A stretch of 34,393 nt of DNA, taken from contig QWPW01000034.1 in the NCBI GenBank assembly GCA_003671025.1, positions 1 to 34,393 on the forward strand, given 5' to 3'. This stretch comes from Planctomycetota bacterium (GTDB lineage Bacteria; Planctomycetota; Phycisphaerae; Phycisphaerales; SM1A02). The notes below the pieces were generated by a model that made no database searches, was not told where the DNA came from, and saw only the letters and a list, made by a program, of their open reading frames with translations. Position 1 is the stretch's first letter. Each line of letters opens with the position of its first letter. Below, in pieces: positions 12,093 through 28,183 of this stretch. Both the position numbers and the translations under genes were made by a program.

Positions 12093-13295
12093 TCAAGCGA
12101 GGCGCATTCCTGGCCACGGCCCCGCGAAAAGATGAACGTCCCGCTCATGGACATGAAAGCGCGTGATCGCATGCATCGGCAGATCTTGCGCCTCATGAGC
12201 ATCAACGCGCGCGCGCAGCACTCGGCCATCGGCGCGTTGTGCGATGAGGTCGGTGAAGATGCCCGCTCCTTCGCGCGCGATGAGTTTTGCGTCGAGGACA
12301 ATCGATGGTTCACGCGGCGCGCCCACGCGAATGTGCCACGGACGAATGCCGAGCAACACCGTTCCATCGTGATTCATCCCATCCATTGCTCCATGGATCC
12401 GCTCTGTGAATGCCGGCGCAAACCAACATTGCGTGGTCGCGAGATCGGATGCGTCATCCACGGTACTTCGCGTCAATTGCTCGTCCGTGAGGGTGATGAC
12501 ATGCATGCCAAGGTCATCGACAAGTTGCGCGACTTCGAGATCAATCGGTCGCGACGCGACTTCCGCCGCAGGACCAAACGCACGCACGCGGCCGTTGATC
12601 AACACCAACAGATCATCGGCGATGGCCAACGCGTCGGTGGGATCATGGGTGACCACGATCGTGGTCGCACCGCTTGAACGCTGCACGTCGCGCACCAAGG
12701 CGCGCACGGTGTATCGATTGCCGCGATCGAGATTGGCCAGCGGCTCATCCAACAACGCCAAGCGCGGCGAGCGAATGAACACGCGCGCCACCGCAATGCG
12801 CCGTCGCTCACCCGCGGAGAGCGTCACGGGAGCGCGTGGTAAGAGATGGGTCACGCCAAGCGACTGCGCCAAACTGGCGACACGCGCGCGTTGCACTTCG
12901 CGCGAATCTCCCCGTGAAACCGCGGCAGAATCGAGGTTTTGCGCGACCGTGAGATGTTCATGCAGCGCGCCATCGTCGAAGCTCATCCCGATGCCGCGCT
13001 CGACCGGTGACTGCTGCTTCCAATCGATGTCGTCGAACAGAATGCGTCCCGCATGCGCCGTCTCGAACCCGGCGAGCAACGCAAGCAGCGTGCTCTTGCC
13101 TGCGCCCGAAGGACCGACGATTGCTAACAGTCGGCCTTCTTCGAGCGTGAAATTCACATCGTCGAGTACGACCTCGCCCGCACGCGCAAAGCACAAGCCT
13201 TCGACGCGCAGTGACGCGCGCGAACGTTGACCTAAGGGAACGACCTCGCGCGGCGCGTCGACGCGAACGCCCTCATGTGGCGCGCGCGGAGACAT
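12093..13295 (-). CDS. ABC-type ATPase, MalK/UgpC-like, with altered Q-loop
   Basis: ATP-binding subunit of 400 residues. Walker A is GPSGAGKST (61-69), the signature is LSAGE (159-163, in place of LSGGQ), Walker B is LALLDEP with D183 and E184, the D-loop is ANLD, and the H-loop is VVTHD with H217. The segment that normally reads GMVFQ reads GMSFDD (103-108), so the Q-loop Gln is replaced by Asp. Residues about 240-400 form a MalK-style regulatory region with a TOBE-like motif, VLLGIRPWHIRV. The ATG at 13293-13295 comes three bases after the prfB stop, and GH133 follows, so it lies inside one operon. No permease or binding protein is present in the window. It could power a sugar importer encoded elsewhere; a non-transport role is also possible. 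Confidence 0.85.
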   Translation of the reverse strand: MSPRAPHEGVRVDAPREVVPLGQRSRASLRVEGLCFARAGEVVLDDVNFTLEEGRLLAIVGPSGAGKSTLLALLAGFETAHAGRILFDDIDWKQQSPVERGIGMSFDDGALHEHLTVAQNLDSAAVSRGDSREVQRARVASLAQSLGVTHLLPRAPVTLSAGERRRIAVARVFIRSPRLALLDEPLANLDRGNRYTVRALVRDVQRSSGATTIVVTHDPTDALAIADDLLVLINGRVRAFGPAAEVASRPIDLEVAQLVDDLGMHVITLTDEQLTRSTVDDASDLATTQCWFAPAFTERIHGAMDGMNHDGTVLLGIRPWHIRVGAPREPSIVLDAKLIAREGAGIFTDLIAQRADGRVLRARVDAHEAQDLPMHAITRFHVHERDVHLFAGPWPGMRLA

Positions 13296-13298
13296 CGC

Positions 13299-14406
13299 TC
13301 AGCCACGCTCCGCGCGTCGGCGCTTGAGTTCGGAATCGATGAACGGCGAGACCGCACCATCAAGCACGCTCTGCGGATTGCCCACTTCGTGTCCCGAGCG
13401 ATGATCCTTCACGCGGTTGTCGTAGAAGACGTAACTGCGAATCTGATTTCCCCAGTCGCGCGAAACTTTTCCGCCGGTGGCGGTGGCAATTTCCGCGGCG
13501 CGTCGCTCCTCTTCGAGCAACTCCAACTTCGCGCGCAGCACTTGCATCGCTTGCTTGCGATTCTGCGGTTGATCGCGATAGGTGCTCGCGACCACTTGAA
13601 TTCCCGTAGGAATATGCGTGACACGCACCGCGCTGGCGACCTTGTTCACGTTCTGTCCGCCAGGGCCACTCGCGCGCACGAACGGGCAGATGTCGAGATC
13701 TTTGTCGGGGATGACGAGATCGTTGTCTTCAAACTCTGGGGTCACATCGACGGTGGCGAAACTAGTTTGTCGCTTGCCTTCCGCGTTGAAGGGCGAGACG
13801 CGCGCGAGGCGATGAGTGCCGCGCTCACAACTCATGTAGCCGTAGGCAAACGGCCCCGACACGCGATACGCAACTTCGCTGACGCCTGCTTCGGCGCCCA
13901 TAGTGCGATTGATTTCTTCGATCTTGAAGCCCATCTCTTCGAAGTAGTACAGGTACATGCGTTCGAGCATGCCCGCCCAATCTTCGGCCTCGGTGCCACC
14001 CGCGCCCGCTTGAATGGCCACGAAGCAACTGCGATGGTCGTGCAGACCAGAGAGCAGTGACTGCTGCTCGACTTTTTCCATCGTGTGCTTGAGCGCCCAC
14101 AGTGTGTCGTCGACTTCCTGCAACAGCGCGGCATCATTCGCTTCGCGCGAGAGTTCGTAACCGATCTTCGCGTCCTCGATCATGTTGACCGCGACTTCGA
14201 GCGGCTCAATCTGCGCGCGGATGACCTTGCTCTCTTCGATGGTTTTTTGCGCGGCTTTGGGGTTGTTCCAAAACTCAGGCGCGTTCATGCGGTCGGTGAA
14301 CGCAGCGCGTTCGGCGATTTTTTGATCGTAGTTAAAGAGAGTCGCGGAGCGTCAAAATCCGCGCCTCTAACTCGTCGATCACTGGCTGATGAGCGTCGTA
14401 ATGCAT
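13299..14406 (-). CDS. prfB: Peptide chain release factor 2, with +1 programmed frameshift
   Basis: Terminates translation at UGA and UAA. The main frame (13299-14333) holds the RF2 signatures: SPF of the codon-recognition loop in RVSPFNAEGKRQTSF and GGQ in ASGPGGQNVNKV. It lacks a proper amino end unless a short upstream frame is joined: ATG at 14404-14406, 24 codons (MHYDAHQPVIDELEARILTL, then RDSL), then UAA at 14332-14334. Skipping one base after CUU gives NYDQKIAERAAFTDRM and runs on into the main frame. The result is 368 residues, close to the 365 of E. coli RF2, and the shift falls where E. coli has it (after codon 25). The stop here is UAA rather than the usual UGA. First gene of the prfB-ATPase-GH133-GH63 cluster; divergent from the aminotransferase gene. 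Confidence 0.92.
14331..14337 (-). promoter_or_regulatory. prfB +1 frameshift site CUU UAA C
   Basis: The minus strand reads CTT TAA C at the junction of the short leader frame and the main RF2 frame. CUU followed by a stop and C is the classical RF2 slippery site, at which low RF2 lets the ribosome move +1. I see no AGGGGG-like element in the preceding ten bases (CTCCGCGACTCT), unlike E. coli. Confidence 0.8.
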
Positions 14407-14478
14407 AGGGTCGACGAGTGTAGCGAACAGTCGTTGATGCGTTCTGCACGTAGAGCGTGAACCACTACGATCCCGCGC

Positions 14479-15699
14479 ATGTTCGTTTCGACTCGCATCG
14501 CATCCATGTCTGAATCCGCCACGCTCGCCGTGGGAGCGAAGGCCGCCGCGGCGCGCGCGCGAGGTCACGATGTCATCGCCTTTGCTACGGGCGAGCCTGA
14601 CTTTGATACTCCAGACAACATCAAGCGTGTCGCAATTCATGCTCTCGAGAAAGGCATGACCAAGTACGCGCCCACACCGGGCGACAAGAGTGCGCGTCTG
14701 GCCATCGCGCACAAACTCACGCAGGAAAACGGAATCGAAACATCGTTCGAGCAAGTCACGGTGACCGCCGGCGCCAAGCACGCGATCTACATGGCGTTGC
14801 AAGCAATCGTGGAACCAGGTCGGATGGATGAAGTGTTGTTGCCTACGCCCGCGTGGGTTTCGTACAAGCCGCTCATCGAACTCGCAGGTGCGAAGTGCGT
14901 TGAGATTGCCGGCGCGCGCGAGAACGGATTTCGCATCACCAGCGCACAACTCGCGGCCGCGATCACTCCCAAGACGGTGGGCATCGTGTGGAACTCACCC
15001 TCGAACCCGTGCGGCATCGCGTACCCCGCGAGCGAAGTGCGCGCGCTGTGCGACGTGCTCATCAAGCACGAACGGATCACCATCATCAGCGACGAGATTT
15101 ACGAGAAGCTCATTTACCCCGAGATTTCCCCAGGATTAGCCCACCTTTCGCCGGGCTCGCTCGCGGCGCTTGCGTCGCGCACCATCACCGTCAACGGATT
15201 GAGCAAGAGCTACGCGATGACCGGTTGGCGTGTGGGCTATCTCGCGGCGCCGTTGGCGATGGCCAAAGAGATCATCAAGTTGCAGGGACAGATGACCAAC
15301 TCGATTCCGAGTTTTTTCTATCCCGCGATCGTCGAAGCACTGAGCAACAGCGCCGCCAGCGTTGAAGCGATGCGCATCACGTTCGCCGCGCGAGCGCAAC
15401 TCATGCATCGGGAACTTTCGAGTGTTCCGAAGTTTCACACCGTGGCACCCAACGCAGCGTTCTATGCATTTCCCGATGTGAGCGGGTACTTCGGCACCGT
15501 GAGTCCCGCGGGGGTAACCATCAACAGCGCGCAAAGTTTCGCTGATGCGCTGCTCAACGAGGCGCACGTTGCCGTCGTCCCCGGCGAGGACTTCGGCGCG
15601 TGCGCGCGCGGAAACATTCGTTTGTCGTTTGCGTGCAGCGACGAAAACATTATCAATGGCATCGGACGCATTCGTACGTGGGTCGCGCAATTGAAATGA
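14479..15699 (+). CDS. Class I/II PLP aminotransferase, aspartate-type
   Basis: Transfers amino groups between aspartate (possibly also prephenate) and 2-oxoglutarate, using pyridoxal phosphate in the cytoplasm. The 406-residue length is usual for the 1-beta subgroup of aspartate aminotransferases. Visible motifs are FATGEPDFDTP near residue 35, YAPTPGDKSAR near 63, NSPSNPCG (172-179, substrate Asn region), SDEIYEKL with D205 and Y208 that contact the cofactor, and GLSKSYAMTGWRVGY with K243 as the Schiff-base lysine. A C-terminal arginine in NIRLSFACSD binds the substrate carboxylate in this family. The start is ATG 14479; there is no strong ribosome-binding site. It is transcribed away from prfB across a 72-base gap. 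Exact substrate preference within the subgroup is not certain. Confidence 0.92.
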   Translation: MFVSTRIASMSESATLAVGAKAAAARARGHDVIAFATGEPDFDTPDNIKRVAIHALEKGMTKYAPTPGDKSARLAIAHKLTQENGIETSFEQVTVTAGAKHAIYMALQAIVEPGRMDEVLLPTPAWVSYKPLIELAGAKCVEIAGARENGFRITSAQLAAAITPKTVGIVWNSPSNPCGIAYPASEVRALCDVLIKHERITIISDEIYEKLIYPEISPGLAHLSPGSLAALASRTITVNGLSKSYAMTGWRVGYLAAPLAMAKEIIKLQGQMTNSIPSFFYPAIVEALSNSAASVEAMRITFAARAQLMHRELSSVPKFHTVAPNAAFYAFPDVSGYFGTVSPAGVTINSAQSFADALLNEAHVAVVPGEDFGACARGNIRLSFACSDENIINGIGRIRTWVAQLK

Positions 15700-16100
15700 T
15701 CGGCGGGCGATGTGCGCGCAACCCACGCGCGTTCTGAAAAATTTGCTTCGCGCTGGGCACGATGGAGAATTATCCGAACCAGTGTCCGTGAGCATCGGAG
15801 TGGCACCGAGCGTGACAAGTGAACATTCGTTACTGCATCGCGAGCAGCCGCTGCGCTCGAGTCAATCCCTTTGCACCAGCGCCTCTCGCGCGCTCATGCC
15901 ACCGAGTCGACGAACTTAGTCCCACTGTCTCGCCCGTCGAAGGCGGTCCCGACCGCGCTTGATCAGAGGCGCTACCAAAGACGCTCGTTTGGTTCACGCG
16001 GTCATGGAGCGGGATCGATAGAGGGCTCCGCGATCGGTCGAGCTAGTCGTTGCATTTTTCGTCCGAACAACAATCAACCGCGAGGCCGGGGGATTGCACT
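15700..16100 (+). other. Intergenic leader before the hybrid kinase
   Basis: Four hundred bases without a convincing coding frame. A short inverted repeat ACCAAA/TTTGGT lies at about 15975-15994. A ribosome-binding site GGGGGA sits at 16088-16093, just ahead of the kinase start. I see no clear terminator after the aminotransferase and no SRP, 6S or tmRNA signature. Confidence 0.4.
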
Positions 16101-18536
16101 ATGGTTCACTCCATGCGATCTGGACGACTGTCAACCGCCTTGCTCTGGTTCACCGCCTGCTCCGCCGTGAGTGCTCTTTTGCTGGCGATTGCGCTTCTCG
16201 CACAGATCGGGGTTGATGGGGGAGAGGCTGTCGGCCCCAATGAGGTCGTGGTCTACGAGGCAACCAAGTCAAATGAACGGGATCACGTGCGCGCGATCGC
16301 GGGCATCACCCGCGCGCGCATCATGCAAGAGGTTCGCCCGGCGATGGCGCGCGCGCAGCTGATCGCTGCCGATCCGCGAGTCATCGCTGCGGCTCGCACC
16401 TGTAAGCGCGAAGAAATTGATCGCCTCGCCAATGAGCTCATTCGTGGCTCGACCGAAGTGGATTTGATCGCCATCTTCGATGCCAAGGGAATGTTGTGCG
16501 GATTCAATTCCATTCGCAACGACGGCGAGCCCTATCCCGAGCAGGGCGTGGCCAGCCTATTTGAGAAGAGTTTTTCGTCGCGCGAGGTTGTGACCAATTG
16601 CCTGCGCGATTCTTCGACCGCGGCGTCGCTGGAATTCCAGCACCAGTGTGATTTCTCTCCCGCGCTCGTCGGAAGCAAGGGGCTCGCGGTTGCGTACAGC
16701 GTCCCGCTGCGCGACCCGACGTCCAACGCGATTCTTGGCGTGGTCAGTGTGCGACTGTGGTTCGATCGCCTGATGGAACTCTTGCCGCAGAACGAGCCCT
16801 CCGCGAACGTCGCGTTTGTTTCCGACGACGGCGAGCTCTTCAGCGAAACTCTCACCCAAGGCGGCGCCGAGTTCCCCATTCCTTTGGACAGCGTGAAGCA
16901 AATGGTCGCGGCGCTGAGCAGTTCGGGAAACCCCGACGCAACCTTTGCGTGGAATGATCTCATCGTTGAACTCGCGGAGGTCACTGATGTTCAATCGCTG
17001 AAAGCGGCTGCCGCCAAGGTGCACTCCAACAAGTTGACTTCACTGGGGATCAAGTCGTTCGATGTCAACGCGCTGAAGGGCGGCAAGATTTTCGTACTCG
17101 CCTACGCGGATCGAACATGGATCACTGGCGATCAAACGCGCGCTCGCACGGCCACCGCGATGGGCGTGCTCATGATCGCACTGTGTGTGTTGGCCGCGTT
17201 TCTGTTTCTGCTCACGATGCACCATCGTGCGCTCGCGCTGCAACTCGCGGTCGCGGGGAAGGCGGCCGACGCTGCCTCGCGTTCCAAGAGCGGCTTCCTC
17301 GCGCACATGAGCCATGAGATTCGAACTCCCATGACAGCGGTGCTGGGTTACCTCGAACTTTTGGGTGGCCCCGAACCTGCCGCGAATTCGAAGCAGCCCT
17401 CACGAGCAGAACTCATTGCCATCGCTCGCCGCAACGCGAAGCACATGCTGGCGATCTTGGACGACATCCTCGACCTCTCACGCATCGAATCGAATGAAAC
17501 CCCGCTGCAATTCGCGTGGATTCGACCGCTCGACATCGCGCGCGAATGCGTTGCGGCGGCCGCGCCCGCTGCTGCAGGACGGGGCATCACGGTGCGGTTG
17601 CAGAGCGCACTCGGCGAAGGTGCGAATGAAATCGGCTCAATGGGAACCGACCCCAATCGGTTGTGGCAAATCCTCACCAATCTCATCGGCAACGCCGTGA
17701 AGTTCACCGATCGCGGCGAAGTGGTGGTCACCGTCGAGCCGTGCGAGGGAGACATATTTGAGTTTCGCGTGCGCGATTGCGGAATCGGTATCGACCCAAG
17801 CAAGCAGTCGCAGTTGTTCAAGCCCTTCTCGCAGATCGACTCGGGCATGAGCCGTCGCCACGGCGGCACAGGACTGGGCTTGGTGATCACGAAGCATTAC
17901 GTCGAATTGCTCGGTGGCACCATCGAACTTCAGTCTGCGCTTGGCGTGGGCACGACGGTGATCGTTCGACTGCCATCGCGCCTGTCGGTCGAGCCGCGCT
18001 CGAGCGCCGCGGCAAACACGAGCGCAGCGGCAAACACGAGTGCAGCAGCAAACACAAGCGCGCCTGCGAACACGAGTGCAGCGGGCGGTCGAGCGGTGGA
18101 CGCTCCAGTTCAACTCGACACAACACCGCTCGCGGGTGCGCGTGTGCTAGTCGCAGAAGACCATGAGGACAATCAGGCGCTCATGCGTTACTACCTCGAG
18201 GCTGCAGGCGCGATTGTGCTGGGTGCGAACAATGGACAAGAGGCGATCGCGCAGATTGAGGCGGCCACGGAGCCATTTGATGTCGTCTTCATGGATATGC
18301 AGATGCCGGTGATGGACGGATACACCGCCAGCAAACAGCTGCGCAAATCGGGCTATCGCGGCATCATCGTCGCGCTCACGGGGCACGCGATGGAAGGCGA
18401 GCGAGAACGCTGCATGGAATCTGGTTGCTCAGATTACCTCAGCAAGCCCGCGACTCGTGAGGACGTGGTGCGCAAGGTGCTTCGCTACGTGCCGGTTCGG
18501 GTCACCCAAGCGAGTGCCGCGCACGGTGGTGCATGA
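16101..18536 (+). CDS. Membrane hybrid sensor histidine kinase with receiver domain
   Basis: Two-component sensor of 811 residues. A first membrane helix (about 11-36) and a second (about 352-373) enclose a 310-residue periplasmic sensor of Cache-like pattern (IRNDGEPYP, then GLAVAYSVPLRDP and ILGVVSVRLWFDRL), with four cysteines at 101, 133, 167 and 183. HisKA follows with H405 in HMSHEIRTPM, then HATPase with N531 (NLIGNAVKF), DCGIGID and the GGTGLGLVI lid. A linker of AAANTS repeats leads to a receiver domain (680-797) with acid pocket E686/D687, phospho-acceptor D732 (FMDMQMPVMDG), T760 and K782. ATG 16101 is chosen for the GGGGGA eight bases upstream; a longer frame to 16050 lacks support. 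The stop overlaps the start of a response-regulator stub. Confidence 0.93.
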   Translation: MVHSMRSGRLSTALLWFTACSAVSALLLAIALLAQIGVDGGEAVGPNEVVVYEATKSNERDHVRAIAGITRARIMQEVRPAMARAQLIAADPRVIAAARTCKREEIDRLANELIRGSTEVDLIAIFDAKGMLCGFNSIRNDGEPYPEQGVASLFEKSFSSREVVTNCLRDSSTAASLEFQHQCDFSPALVGSKGLAVAYSVPLRDPTSNAILGVVSVRLWFDRLMELLPQNEPSANVAFVSDDGELFSETLTQGGAEFPIPLDSVKQMVAALSSSGNPDATFAWNDLIVELAEVTDVQSLKAAAAKVHSNKLTSLGIKSFDVNALKGGKIFVLAYADRTWITGDQTRARTATAMGVLMIALCVLAAFLFLLTMHHRALALQLAVAGKAADAASRSKSGFLAHMSHEIRTPMTAVLGYLELLGGPEPAANSKQPSRAELIAIARRNAKHMLAILDDILDLSRIESNETPLQFAWIRPLDIARECVAAAAPAAAGRGITVRLQSALGEGANEIGSMGTDPNRLWQILTNLIGNAVKFTDRGEVVVTVEPCEGDIFEFRVRDCGIGIDPSKQSQLFKPFSQIDSGMSRRHGGTGLGLVITKHYVELLGGTIELQSALGVGTTVIVRLPSRLSVEPRSSAAANTSAAANTSAAANTSAPANTSAAGGRAVDAPVQLDTTPLAGARVLVAEDHEDNQALMRYYLEAAGAIVLGANNGQEAIAQIEAATEPFDVVFMDMQMPVMDGYTASKQLRKSGYRGIIVALTGHAMEGERERCMESGCSDYLSKPATREDVVRKVLRYVPVRVTQASAAHGGA
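18005..18085 (+). repeat. 18-bp tandem repeat in the kinase linker
   Basis: Four copies with a period of exactly 18 bases (anchors aaacac or gaacac at 18014, 18032, 18050 and 18068) encode AAANTS hexapeptides. It makes a flexible linker between kinase core and receiver, and the length may vary between strains through slippage. Confidence 0.8.
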
Positions 18537-26330: not shown

Positions 26331-28183
26331 CGGCTGCGTCCCTTGGGCGATGAGGACTTGCCGCCAAACGGCTTACTGCTGAAACTCTTGCCGCCGGACT
26401 TGCCTCCCGATTTGGGGAACGATTTCGGCTCGCGTTCGCGCGTGTCTTCCCGTGATTCAGCGCGCGAATCCGCGCGACGCTTCGTGATGGGAACAACGCG
26501 TGTTGCGCGCACAGGTGCGCTCGCTCCGCGCTCTGTTGCCTGCGAACGCGTCGCGCCTGATGCGCCGTGTTTGGAGTTGAAGCGCTGCGCATGACCGCCA
26601 TCGTTGCGCGGCGCGCGTTTGCTGTCCTTGCGCGCCGCTGGTTCGGCACGCGGCGCACGCTCGGCCGCCGGCTTGCGCGAGGCAGCGCGCGGCGATTGCG
26701 ATGGACTGCGCGGCGGACGCTTGCTTGCGCGTGCGTCTGCGCGCGGAGCTTTCGATTCGGCGCGAGGCGCATCGCGTTTCGAAGGATGAATCTCGCGCGG
26801 CGGTTCGGCCGACTCGTATCGATCTTCGCGTGGCGCACGTGGCGCTTTGAAATCACCGCGCGGCGCACGCGTATCTGCACGCGGCGCTTTCGAATCGAAG
26901 CGCGGCGCGCGCGTATCTGCACGCGGAGCTTTCGAATCGAAGCGCGGCGCGCGCGTATCTGCACGCGGCGCTTTCGAATCGAAGCGTGGTTCGCGCGTAT
27001 CTGCACGTGGCGCTTTGGAATCGAAGCGTGGCGCACGCGTGTCTGCGCGCGGAGCTTTCGCTTCGAAGCGTGGCGCACGCGTATCTGCGCGTGGCTCCTC
27101 GCGTGTGTCTTCTCGATCATCTGTGCGCAGTCTCGGCGTATCGACATTCAACGGACGCGCACCTTCACGCGAAGGTCGCGGCGCAGTGCTCGGACCGCTG
27201 CGATCCATGCGTCCCAGGCGCGGCGCGTGCAACTTCTTCGACTTCATCACCTTGAGTGATTTCAGCGGATTGAACGGTTGCACCGACTTGTCGCGCGCGG
27301 CGGTTTCGTTGCGCGAAGGTGCCGCGGCCATGCGCGTGCTCTTGCCTCCGGTCGTTCCCTTACTCACTGTGGCCGTGCTCGCATTCGCCTCTTCATTGCG
27401 CGAGGCGCGCTTGAGTTGTTGAATCTCGCGCGCAGTCAACTCACGCCACTCGCCCACCGCAAGTCCCTTGAGTTTGAGCGGACCAAAGCTCGTGCGCCGC
27501 ATCTTCTTCACGGGATATCCCAGCGAAAGCATGAGCGGTTTGAGTTGGAGATTGCGATGCTCGCACAGTTCCATGTGCACCGTCGTCGCATCGCGATCGC
27601 GCTTGAGCATGCGCAGCGAACTCTTCGCAGGACCGCCACCTTCGGCTTTGAAGATCGCATGTTCGATCTTGGCGATGGTGTACTCATCGATGCTTCCATC
27701 GAGCGTGACGTCGTATCCCTTGAACACTTCGTAGCGTGGATGCGTGAGTCGATTGGCGAACTCACCGTCGTTGGTGAGGATGAGCAAACCCGACGCATCA
27801 AGATCAAGTCGACCGACGCAATAGAGGCGCGGCCGCGAAGGATGATCAACCAAGTCAATCGCGCGCGGACGTCCTTCGGGATCGCTGTTGGTGCACACGG
27901 TTCCGCGCGGCTTGAAGAGCATGATCGAGACATGCTTCTCCGCTTTGCGCAACGGGCGTCCGTAAACCTCGATGCGATCCTCGTCGGGATTCACCCACGC
28001 GGGCAGCATGTCCACCGTCTTGCCGTTCACGGTGACCGCACCGTTACGCACCAATTCTTCGCACTCGCGCCGCGCCGCAACGCCTGCGTCGGCCAACACC
28101 TTTTGCAGGCGTGTTCCGCGATTTTTGTCGGTGTAATCGTGCGTTCTAATTTCGCTTGCGCGCGTCGGGCGTTCACTGGTCAT
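26327..28183 (-). CDS. RsuA/RluB-family 23S/16S rRNA pseudouridine synthase with long basic tail
   Basis: Isomerises a uridine of rRNA to pseudouridine. From ATG 28183 the 618 residues contain an S4 RNA-binding domain (about 23-75, RLQKVLADAGVAARRECEEL), then the catalytic domain with Asp127 in GRLDLDASGLLILTNDGE and KPRGTVCTNSDPEGRPR. The fold ends at about residue 270 (PLKLKGLAVGEWRELTAREI). That is the usual family length; the remaining 340 residues are an Arg/Lys/Ala/Pro-rich disordered extension with six near-identical 14-residue repeats (APRFDSKAPRADTR). E. coli RluB has a shorter basic tail. It overlaps the next gene (PDZ-solenoid) by four bases. A longer start at 28225 is possible but adds a segment without similarity. 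RluB-like is more likely than RsuA, but this is not certain. Confidence 0.9.
   Translation of the reverse strand: MTSERPTRASEIRTHDYTDKNRGTRLQKVLADAGVAARRECEELVRNGAVTVNGKTVDMLPAWVNPDEDRIEVYGRPLRKAEKHVSIMLFKPRGTVCTNSDPEGRPRAIDLVDHPSRPRLYCVGRLDLDASGLLILTNDGEFANRLTHPRYEVFKGYDVTLDGSIDEYTIAKIEHAIFKAEGGGPAKSSLRMLKRDRDATTVHMELCEHRNLQLKPLMLSLGYPVKKMRRTSFGPLKLKGLAVGEWRELTAREIQQLKRASRNEEANASTATVSKGTTGGKSTRMAAAPSRNETAARDKSVQPFNPLKSLKVMKSKKLHAPRLGRMDRSGPSTAPRPSREGARPLNVDTPRLRTDDREDTREEPRADTRAPRFEAKAPRADTRAPRFDSKAPRADTREPRFDSKAPRADTRAPRFDSKAPRADTRAPRFDSKAPRADTRAPRGDFKAPRAPREDRYESAEPPREIHPSKRDAPRAESKAPRADARASKRPPRSPSQSPRAASRKPAAERAPRAEPAARKDSKRAPRNDGGHAQRFNSKHGASGATRSQATERGASAPVRATRVVPITKRRADSRAESREDTREREPKSFPKSGGKSGGKSFSSKPFGGKSSSPKGRSR
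26850..27100 (-). repeat. 42-bp tandem repeats in the pseudouridine synthase tail
   Basis: Six units spaced exactly 42 bases apart (anchor gtatctgc or gtgtctgc at 26871, 26913, 26955, 26997, 27039 and 27081) encode 14-residue units on the minus strand. The frame is kept throughout, so copy-number changes would lengthen or shorten the tail without breaking it. Confidence 0.9.

Follow-up and report, generated by a model that had tools for sequence, protein, structure and literature searches.

A conserved mRNA hairpin as a candidate replacement for the Shine-Dalgarno-like stimulator of the prfB frameshift in Phycisphaerae

What stimulates the +1 frameshift of prfB, the gene for release factor 2 (RF2), when the Shine-Dalgarno (SD)-like sequence that usually accompanies it is missing? 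This question is raised by a locus in a 34,393-nucleotide stretch of planctomycetotal DNA, the whole of which is called the window here. The accessible text of two papers describes the internal SD of prfB as hyper-conserved (PMC12421855) and the frameshift cassette as remarkably conserved (PMC5009743). In the window, the RF2 coding sequence is split by an early in-frame stop and joined via a +1 shift (Table 1). The locus shares with the canonical E. coli system (CUU UGA C with the internal SD AGGGGG) a short leader ORF, CUU, a stop codon readable by RF2, a C after it, and RF2 in the +1 frame. In contrast to that system, its order has no SD-like element at the site, carries an upstream mRNA hairpin instead, and uses UAA in about half of the members. 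The split RF2 frame, CUU UAA C, and the missing SD-like element had been described in an earlier note on this DNA, and all three were confirmed; neither AGG nor GGA occurs in the 12 bases 5' of CTT in the window (CTCCGCGACTCT). What that note had not seen is a conserved, covarying RNA hairpin, whose 3' half is formed by the bases 5' of CUU. On comparative sequence evidence, we consider it very probable that the locus carries an autoregulatory prfB +1 frameshift in which an intramolecular mRNA hairpin has replaced the usual internal SD-like sequence.

Table 1. Features of the prfB locus, in window coordinates
Feature	Position	Strand	Details
prfB leader ORF	14332..14406	minus	24 codons; ATG 14406; stop TAA 14334-14332; MHYDAHQPVIDELEARILTLRDSL
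GAG	14365..14367	minus	Possible stem extension across a G-A mismatch; pairs with CUC 14341-14339
Hairpin 5' arm, CGCGGAU	14357..14363	minus	-26 to -20 relative to the C of CUU
Hairpin loop	14350..14356	minus	7 nt, sequence variable
Hairpin 3' arm, CUCCGCG	14343..14349	minus	AUCCGCG in most order members
CUC, partner of GAG	14339..14341	minus	With CUU in the P site, its last two bases fall in UCU, the E-site codon
Shift site CUU UAA C	14331..14337	minus	Slippery CUU 14337-14335; stop UAA 14334-14332; then C 14331
RF2 main frame past the +1 shift	13299..14333	minus	Resumes at 14333 (AAC); internal ATG 14288

The 329-aa part from the internal ATG was identified as RF2 by TIGR00020 (379.3 bits; cut-off, 370). 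A search of Rfam with window positions 13200-14700 for known RNAs returned three weak unrelated matches only, with E values up to 5. We surveyed 101 genomes, the window's own and 100 relatives from its genus, family, and order, and found RF2 at an E value of ≤1e-60 in 91 of them. The shift site was examined in 90 of these, with one fragment omitted. CTTTRA was present at the expected place in 82 genomes and absent in 8, all of which had no stop at the site. The leader ATG lay at the window's position in 75 of the 82. Among the 13 genus sequences, variation in the leader fell mainly on the third position of leader-frame codons (0.338 versus 0.114 and 0.035), and variation in the 45 nt past the shift fell mainly on the third position of RF2-frame codons (0.331 versus 0.118 and 0.098). 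Because the coding constraint in the genus changes frame at the site, the frame switch looks real. Across all 82 order sites, the codon-position contrast past the shift was weak (0.542 versus 0.458 and 0.410). Two repeats were observed elsewhere in the window: a tandem array of 42-bp units in about 6 copies (26835-27095) and an 18-bp repeat in 4.7 copies (18001-18084), the latter encoding an NTSAAA-type peptide repeat within a large kinase-like ORF (16050-18536).

The stop codon at the shift site was TAA in 44 and TGA in 38 of the 82 order members. All 13 genus members read (the window and 12 relatives) had TAA, with a near-identical upstream block, and three more genus genomes gave no RF2 match at an E value of 1e-60. 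A base error at this stop, with UGA in relatives, had been proposed as grounds for doubting the site, and the genus-wide TAA rules it out. The earlier note had also taken UAA versions to be rare, and had predicted weaker feedback by RF2 level from a stop that RF1 reads as well. The rarity holds for bacteria as a whole, since TAA was reported at the prfB site in 1.4% of 8,164 genomes (PMC12421855; mBio 2025), but not for this order. The sites in that report have the same CTT TAA and, by its accessible text, are not broadly fixed in clades, in contrast to the genus and order studied here; we found no mention of another stimulator at TAA sites in that text. A quick tree of RF2 from 142 rows of order and class requires at least 18 changes of the stop, of which 16 fall inside the order, and UAA and UGA thus look interchangeable there. 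UAG was found at none of 193 sites, where TAG was allowed outside the order and the order search covered TAA and TGA. A C followed the stop in all 82 order sites, which had been found as CUUURA; one class member outside the order (L191) reads CUU UGA G, without the usual C. Although high UGA use is reported to accompany loss of the prfB frameshift, in a small, mechanically chosen sample UGA ended 59 of 103 long ORFs in the order (window and L423-L430) versus 25 of 79 outside the class (L435-L442).

Within the order, the 30 nt 5' of CTT are strongly conserved and read GAGGCGCGGAU, 7 nt, and AUCCGCGACUCU, followed by CUU, which makes an inverted repeat. The consensus hairpin, CGCGGAU-7 nt-AUCCGCG, has a 7-bp stem that ends 5 nt 5' of CUU, with its 3' arm spanning -12 to -6, and the stem lies directly upstream of the E site. 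The distance between stem and CUU was identical in all 82 order sites. In the window, the pair that closes the loop is mismatched, and 6 bp are left. The fold of 38 nt in the window had an energy of -13.6 kcal/mol and a z score of -2.1, and that of 29 nt had a z score of -1.3, which are modestly better than shuffled sequences. A basal helix of GAG and CUC can form in most order members; it was rejected as a core part of the element, as it does not extend across the class.

A covariance model (R1), built from 73 distinct order rows, matched 221 of 298 class genomes, order members included. Sixty class loci outside the order were hand-picked for spread among the stronger listed matches of this model, which rewards pairing, and all 60 are at RF2. 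Five class genomes without an R1 match were added, and these have 5 to 7 of the 7 pairs; the 65 class rows consist of both sets. When the order and the 60 loci were taken together as 132 distinct rows, with the 5 left out, 98.2% of cells showed pairing. Pair -25/-7 is GC in 74 rows, CG in 41, GU in 14, and AU in 3, and pair -22/-10 is GC in 126, AU in 5, and GU in 1. The covariation score of these rows was 0.190, compared with a mean of 0.067 after shuffling (none of 500 shuffles as high) and at most 0.057 when the pairing was slid. The order alone gives a small signal, with three cells changed on both sides in its 73 distinct rows. When all 147 order and class sites were counted, standard pairs were present at -25/-7 in 147 and at -22/-10 in 146.

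Both variable pairs join the wobble positions of two codons. In the 144 of 147 rows with GCN and CGN codons, the Ala/Arg combinations were GCG-CGC (83 rows), GCC-CGG (44), GCG-CGT (14), and GCA-CGT (3), with no nonpairing combination. Ala, Arg, and Ile codons were then drawn according to usage in the same genes (2,000 draws). Both pairs were complementary in 66 of 66 eligible order rows and 57 of 57 eligible rest-of-class rows, compared with 5.2 and 6.3 expected (maxima of 14 and 15), or jointly 123 of 123 compared with about 11. Rows lacking these amino acids were excluded (16 of 82 in the order and 8 of 65 in the class); the former include all 13 genus members, as the window and its 12 genus relatives have Leu in place of the second Ile. 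The rows are related, and these counts are not independent. The RF2 tree implies at least 8 changes at pair -25/-7; three independent contrasts on well-supported branches all go in the expected direction, a number insufficient for a sign test. Named genomes were also scanned with a pattern in which -25 and -7 could each be G or C, and at least 119 stretches were obtained. Among the matches listed, 103 had G-C, 16 had C-G, and none was unpaired at this pair; 115 of the 119 continue into RF2 by BLAST, and the other four are readable for 3 to 37 residues only. Covariation of the wobble pairs thus supports an RNA-level stem as the upstream element.

As an alternative, the conserved leader peptide (ARI..IRDSL) might stimulate the shift as a nascent chain or be retained because RF2 folding needs it, and its codons would produce the stem incidentally. 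Conservation of the peptide does extend through much of the class, and ARI..IRD alone dictates five of the seven pairs, which leaves only two pairs to carry the RNA-level argument. However, the peptide-neutral wobble positions of these two covary almost without exception, whereas the wobble positions of the loop codons vary. The relatives that have lost the frameshift also speak against the peptide, as their first Arg codon is CGC in 7 of 8, versus CGG in 81 of the 82 with the frameshift. We regard this explanation as quite improbable, though it survives better than the others.

The eight order relatives with an in-frame prfB have 4 to 5 of the 7 pairs in register, compared with 6 to 7 in the 82 with the frameshift. 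Seven of the eight miss at least one wobble pair, and one (L086) retains both. The apparent decay of the stem where the frameshift is lost is supporting evidence and not proof, because the peptide alone gives up to five pairs. The same comparison bears on the idea that the hairpin, rather than serving the slip, attenuates transcription or binds a protein in the prfB mRNA. A GC-rich stem followed by CUCUCUUU does look like a weak terminator, but the U-run is the shift site itself, the spacing between stem and CUU is fixed throughout the order, the stem decays without the frameshift, and SD-like elements fill the same place outside the class. This idea is slightly less probable still than a role of the peptide.

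We next compared SD pairing at the shift site across Planctomycetota, to which all genome searches except the pattern scan were confined. The outside-class sample comprised RF2 starts of 55 Planctomycetota chosen for family spread, with a shift site in 46 and none in 9. A site was scored as SD capable when an SD:anti-SD duplex of -4 kcal/mol or better could form at -15 to -2. Such a duplex was possible in 0 of 82 order sites (median, +0.4), 46 of 65 sites in the rest of the class (median, -4.0), and 39 of 46 sites outside it (median, -5.6). No internal SD-like sequence was found shortly 5' of CUU in any of the 82 order sites, the window included. GTGA, a 4-mer of the extended SD, occurs at 15 of them without a duplex of -4 kcal/mol. 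Conversely, more than four of the seven stem pairs were present in all 147 order and class sites versus none of the 46 outside the class, and TGA was the stop at all of these 46. GGGA is kept in the 3' arm of 46 of the 65 rest-of-class sites, where, judging by the sequence, SD pairing may also be active. The view that UAA occurs only where SD pairing is lost is nearly but not strictly true and was rejected in that form; TAA accompanied 1 of the 16 C-G stems versus 64 of the 103 G-C stems among the listed matches of the pattern scan.

No altered anti-SD was seen: GGATCACCTCCTTTCT is intact in 10 of 10 16S genes read from relatives, one of them from the genus, and a 16S search of the window's own assembly returned no match. 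Upstream of ORF starts in nine order sequences, SD tetramers remain more frequent (37% of 70 mechanically picked starts) than at internal ATGs (10% of 677), similar to the sequences from outside the class (38% of 60 versus 12% of 396), and loss of SD use in the lineage is thus not supported. A different, undetected mRNA:rRNA pairing could still be thought to stimulate the shift, with self-complementarity of the arms being secondary, and the GGGA of the 46 class sites would permit weak anti-SD pairing. However, both arms change together while the anti-SD stays intact, and no order site reaches -4 kcal/mol in a comparison that covered the anti-SD as the rRNA partner, which leaves such a pairing among the two least probable explanations. 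The other of these two, that RF2 arises solely by internal initiation at ATG 14288 behind a vestigial leader, had been raised in the earlier note and is disfavored: this codon is ATG in 79 of 82 order members, but it is CTC in 3 of 82, the genus codons between shift site and ATG are constrained in the RF2 frame, and the C after the stop is kept at every CUUURA site of the order.

The stem is not strictly limited to the class. A class-wide model (R2), used to search beyond the class, found the full stem in one genome (L419) and six pairs in another (L418). R2 matches outside the class came from 18 genomes; among 12 examined, 10 were at prfB and 2 were elsewhere. Weak model matches in five genomes (L133, L136, L137, L138, and L417) were set aside, with RF2 absent within the fetched stretch. 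Shorter stems of the CCCG..CGGG type were also observed (L130, L134, L135, L412, L413, and L420). The full, near-full, and shorter stems, which occur in a few planctomycetotal families outside the class, are either older than the class or evolved again. By title, the listed pattern-scan matches were Planctomycetota in 113 cases, lacked a phylum in 5, and were a cyanobacterium in 1, which looks mislabeled. The metagenome-assembled contigs titled 'Leptolyngbya sp. PLA1' (L354), 'Singulisphaera sp. GP187' (L282), and 'Isosphaera sp.' (L302) bear a Phycisphaerae-type prfB element, and as their RF2 is 62 to 75% identical to that of the window, these titles look wrong. The titles of relatives that share the element agree with the placement in Phycisphaerae that had been guessed from the sequence.

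The earlier note had left two possibilities, an alternative stimulator or a different regulation in this lineage. Our results favor the first, as the covarying upstream hairpin is a candidate stimulator. We infer stimulation of the shift, a pulling step, and autoregulation by RF2, as follows. During leader translation, the ribosome would unfold the hairpin. Once CUU occupies the P site and the stop the A site, the stem could form again where the mRNA leaves the ribosome. There, 5 nt 5' of the P-site codon, it would sit about where an SD:anti-SD helix would. In most order members, the three extra pairs of GAG and CUC could zip into the E-site codon, which would pull the mRNA back by one base and loosen the E-site tRNA. 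When release factor is scarce, the peptidyl-tRNA would re-pair on UUU, and RF2 would be made. For comparison, AGGGGG, the SD-like sequence of E. coli prfB, lies at -9 to -4, as placed from the order AGGGGG UAU CUU in the accessible text of PMC13245932.

Two precedents for a stem behind the ribosome are known. T4 gene 60 is a case of long-gap bypass, in which a gap of 50 nt is passed with the help of a nascent peptide and a take-off stem loop, in contrast to the one-base slip at prfB. Its 5' stem loop is an mRNA stem that forms behind the ribosome, as proposed for the prfB hairpin, and has been proposed to pull the mRNA in the 5' direction (PMC5009743, accessible text). The closer precedent is engineered: an upstream hairpin of 12 bp, adjoining the E site of a CUU-stop shift site as here, gave about 60% of SD-stimulated +1 shifting at CUUUGA in E. 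coli 70S lysate, and only without RF2. The accessible text of that paper, by Huang, Cho and Chang in 2018, discusses release of the E-site tRNA as a cause (PMC6321510). That hairpin is artificial and has a UGCG loop, whereas the Phycisphaerae hairpin is natural and covarying, with at most 7 bp and a 7-nt loop. The natural hairpin fits both precedents and may stimulate the shift as the engineered one does. No natural prfB hairpin was found in searches of an open-licence library, and a natural hairpin-driven prfB shift is likely to be new.

Altogether, in most of the class an mRNA:mRNA hairpin has probably taken over the place of the mRNA:rRNA helix that drives the RF2 frameshift, and its 3' arm would derive from an ancestral SD-like block, GGGAC. 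Where the class has CCGGGAC, either helix would be available; the order of the window has CCGCGAC or CCGTGAC and would depend on the hairpin alone. A natural +1 shift with an upstream hairpin as its motor would be a first, and the stop codon may have become free to alternate between UGA and UAA through the swap. The order also shows that UAA can be common at the prfB site, contrary to the view that it is poorly tolerated. In such a lineage, which seems to keep the feedback loop of RF2 while exchanging the rRNA-pairing stimulator for a hairpin, two candidate causes of the slip come apart: pairing with rRNA and a helix as such at the mRNA exit. The exchange would also turn the engineered hairpin result into an evolved one, with many natural variants of a stem behind the ribosome.
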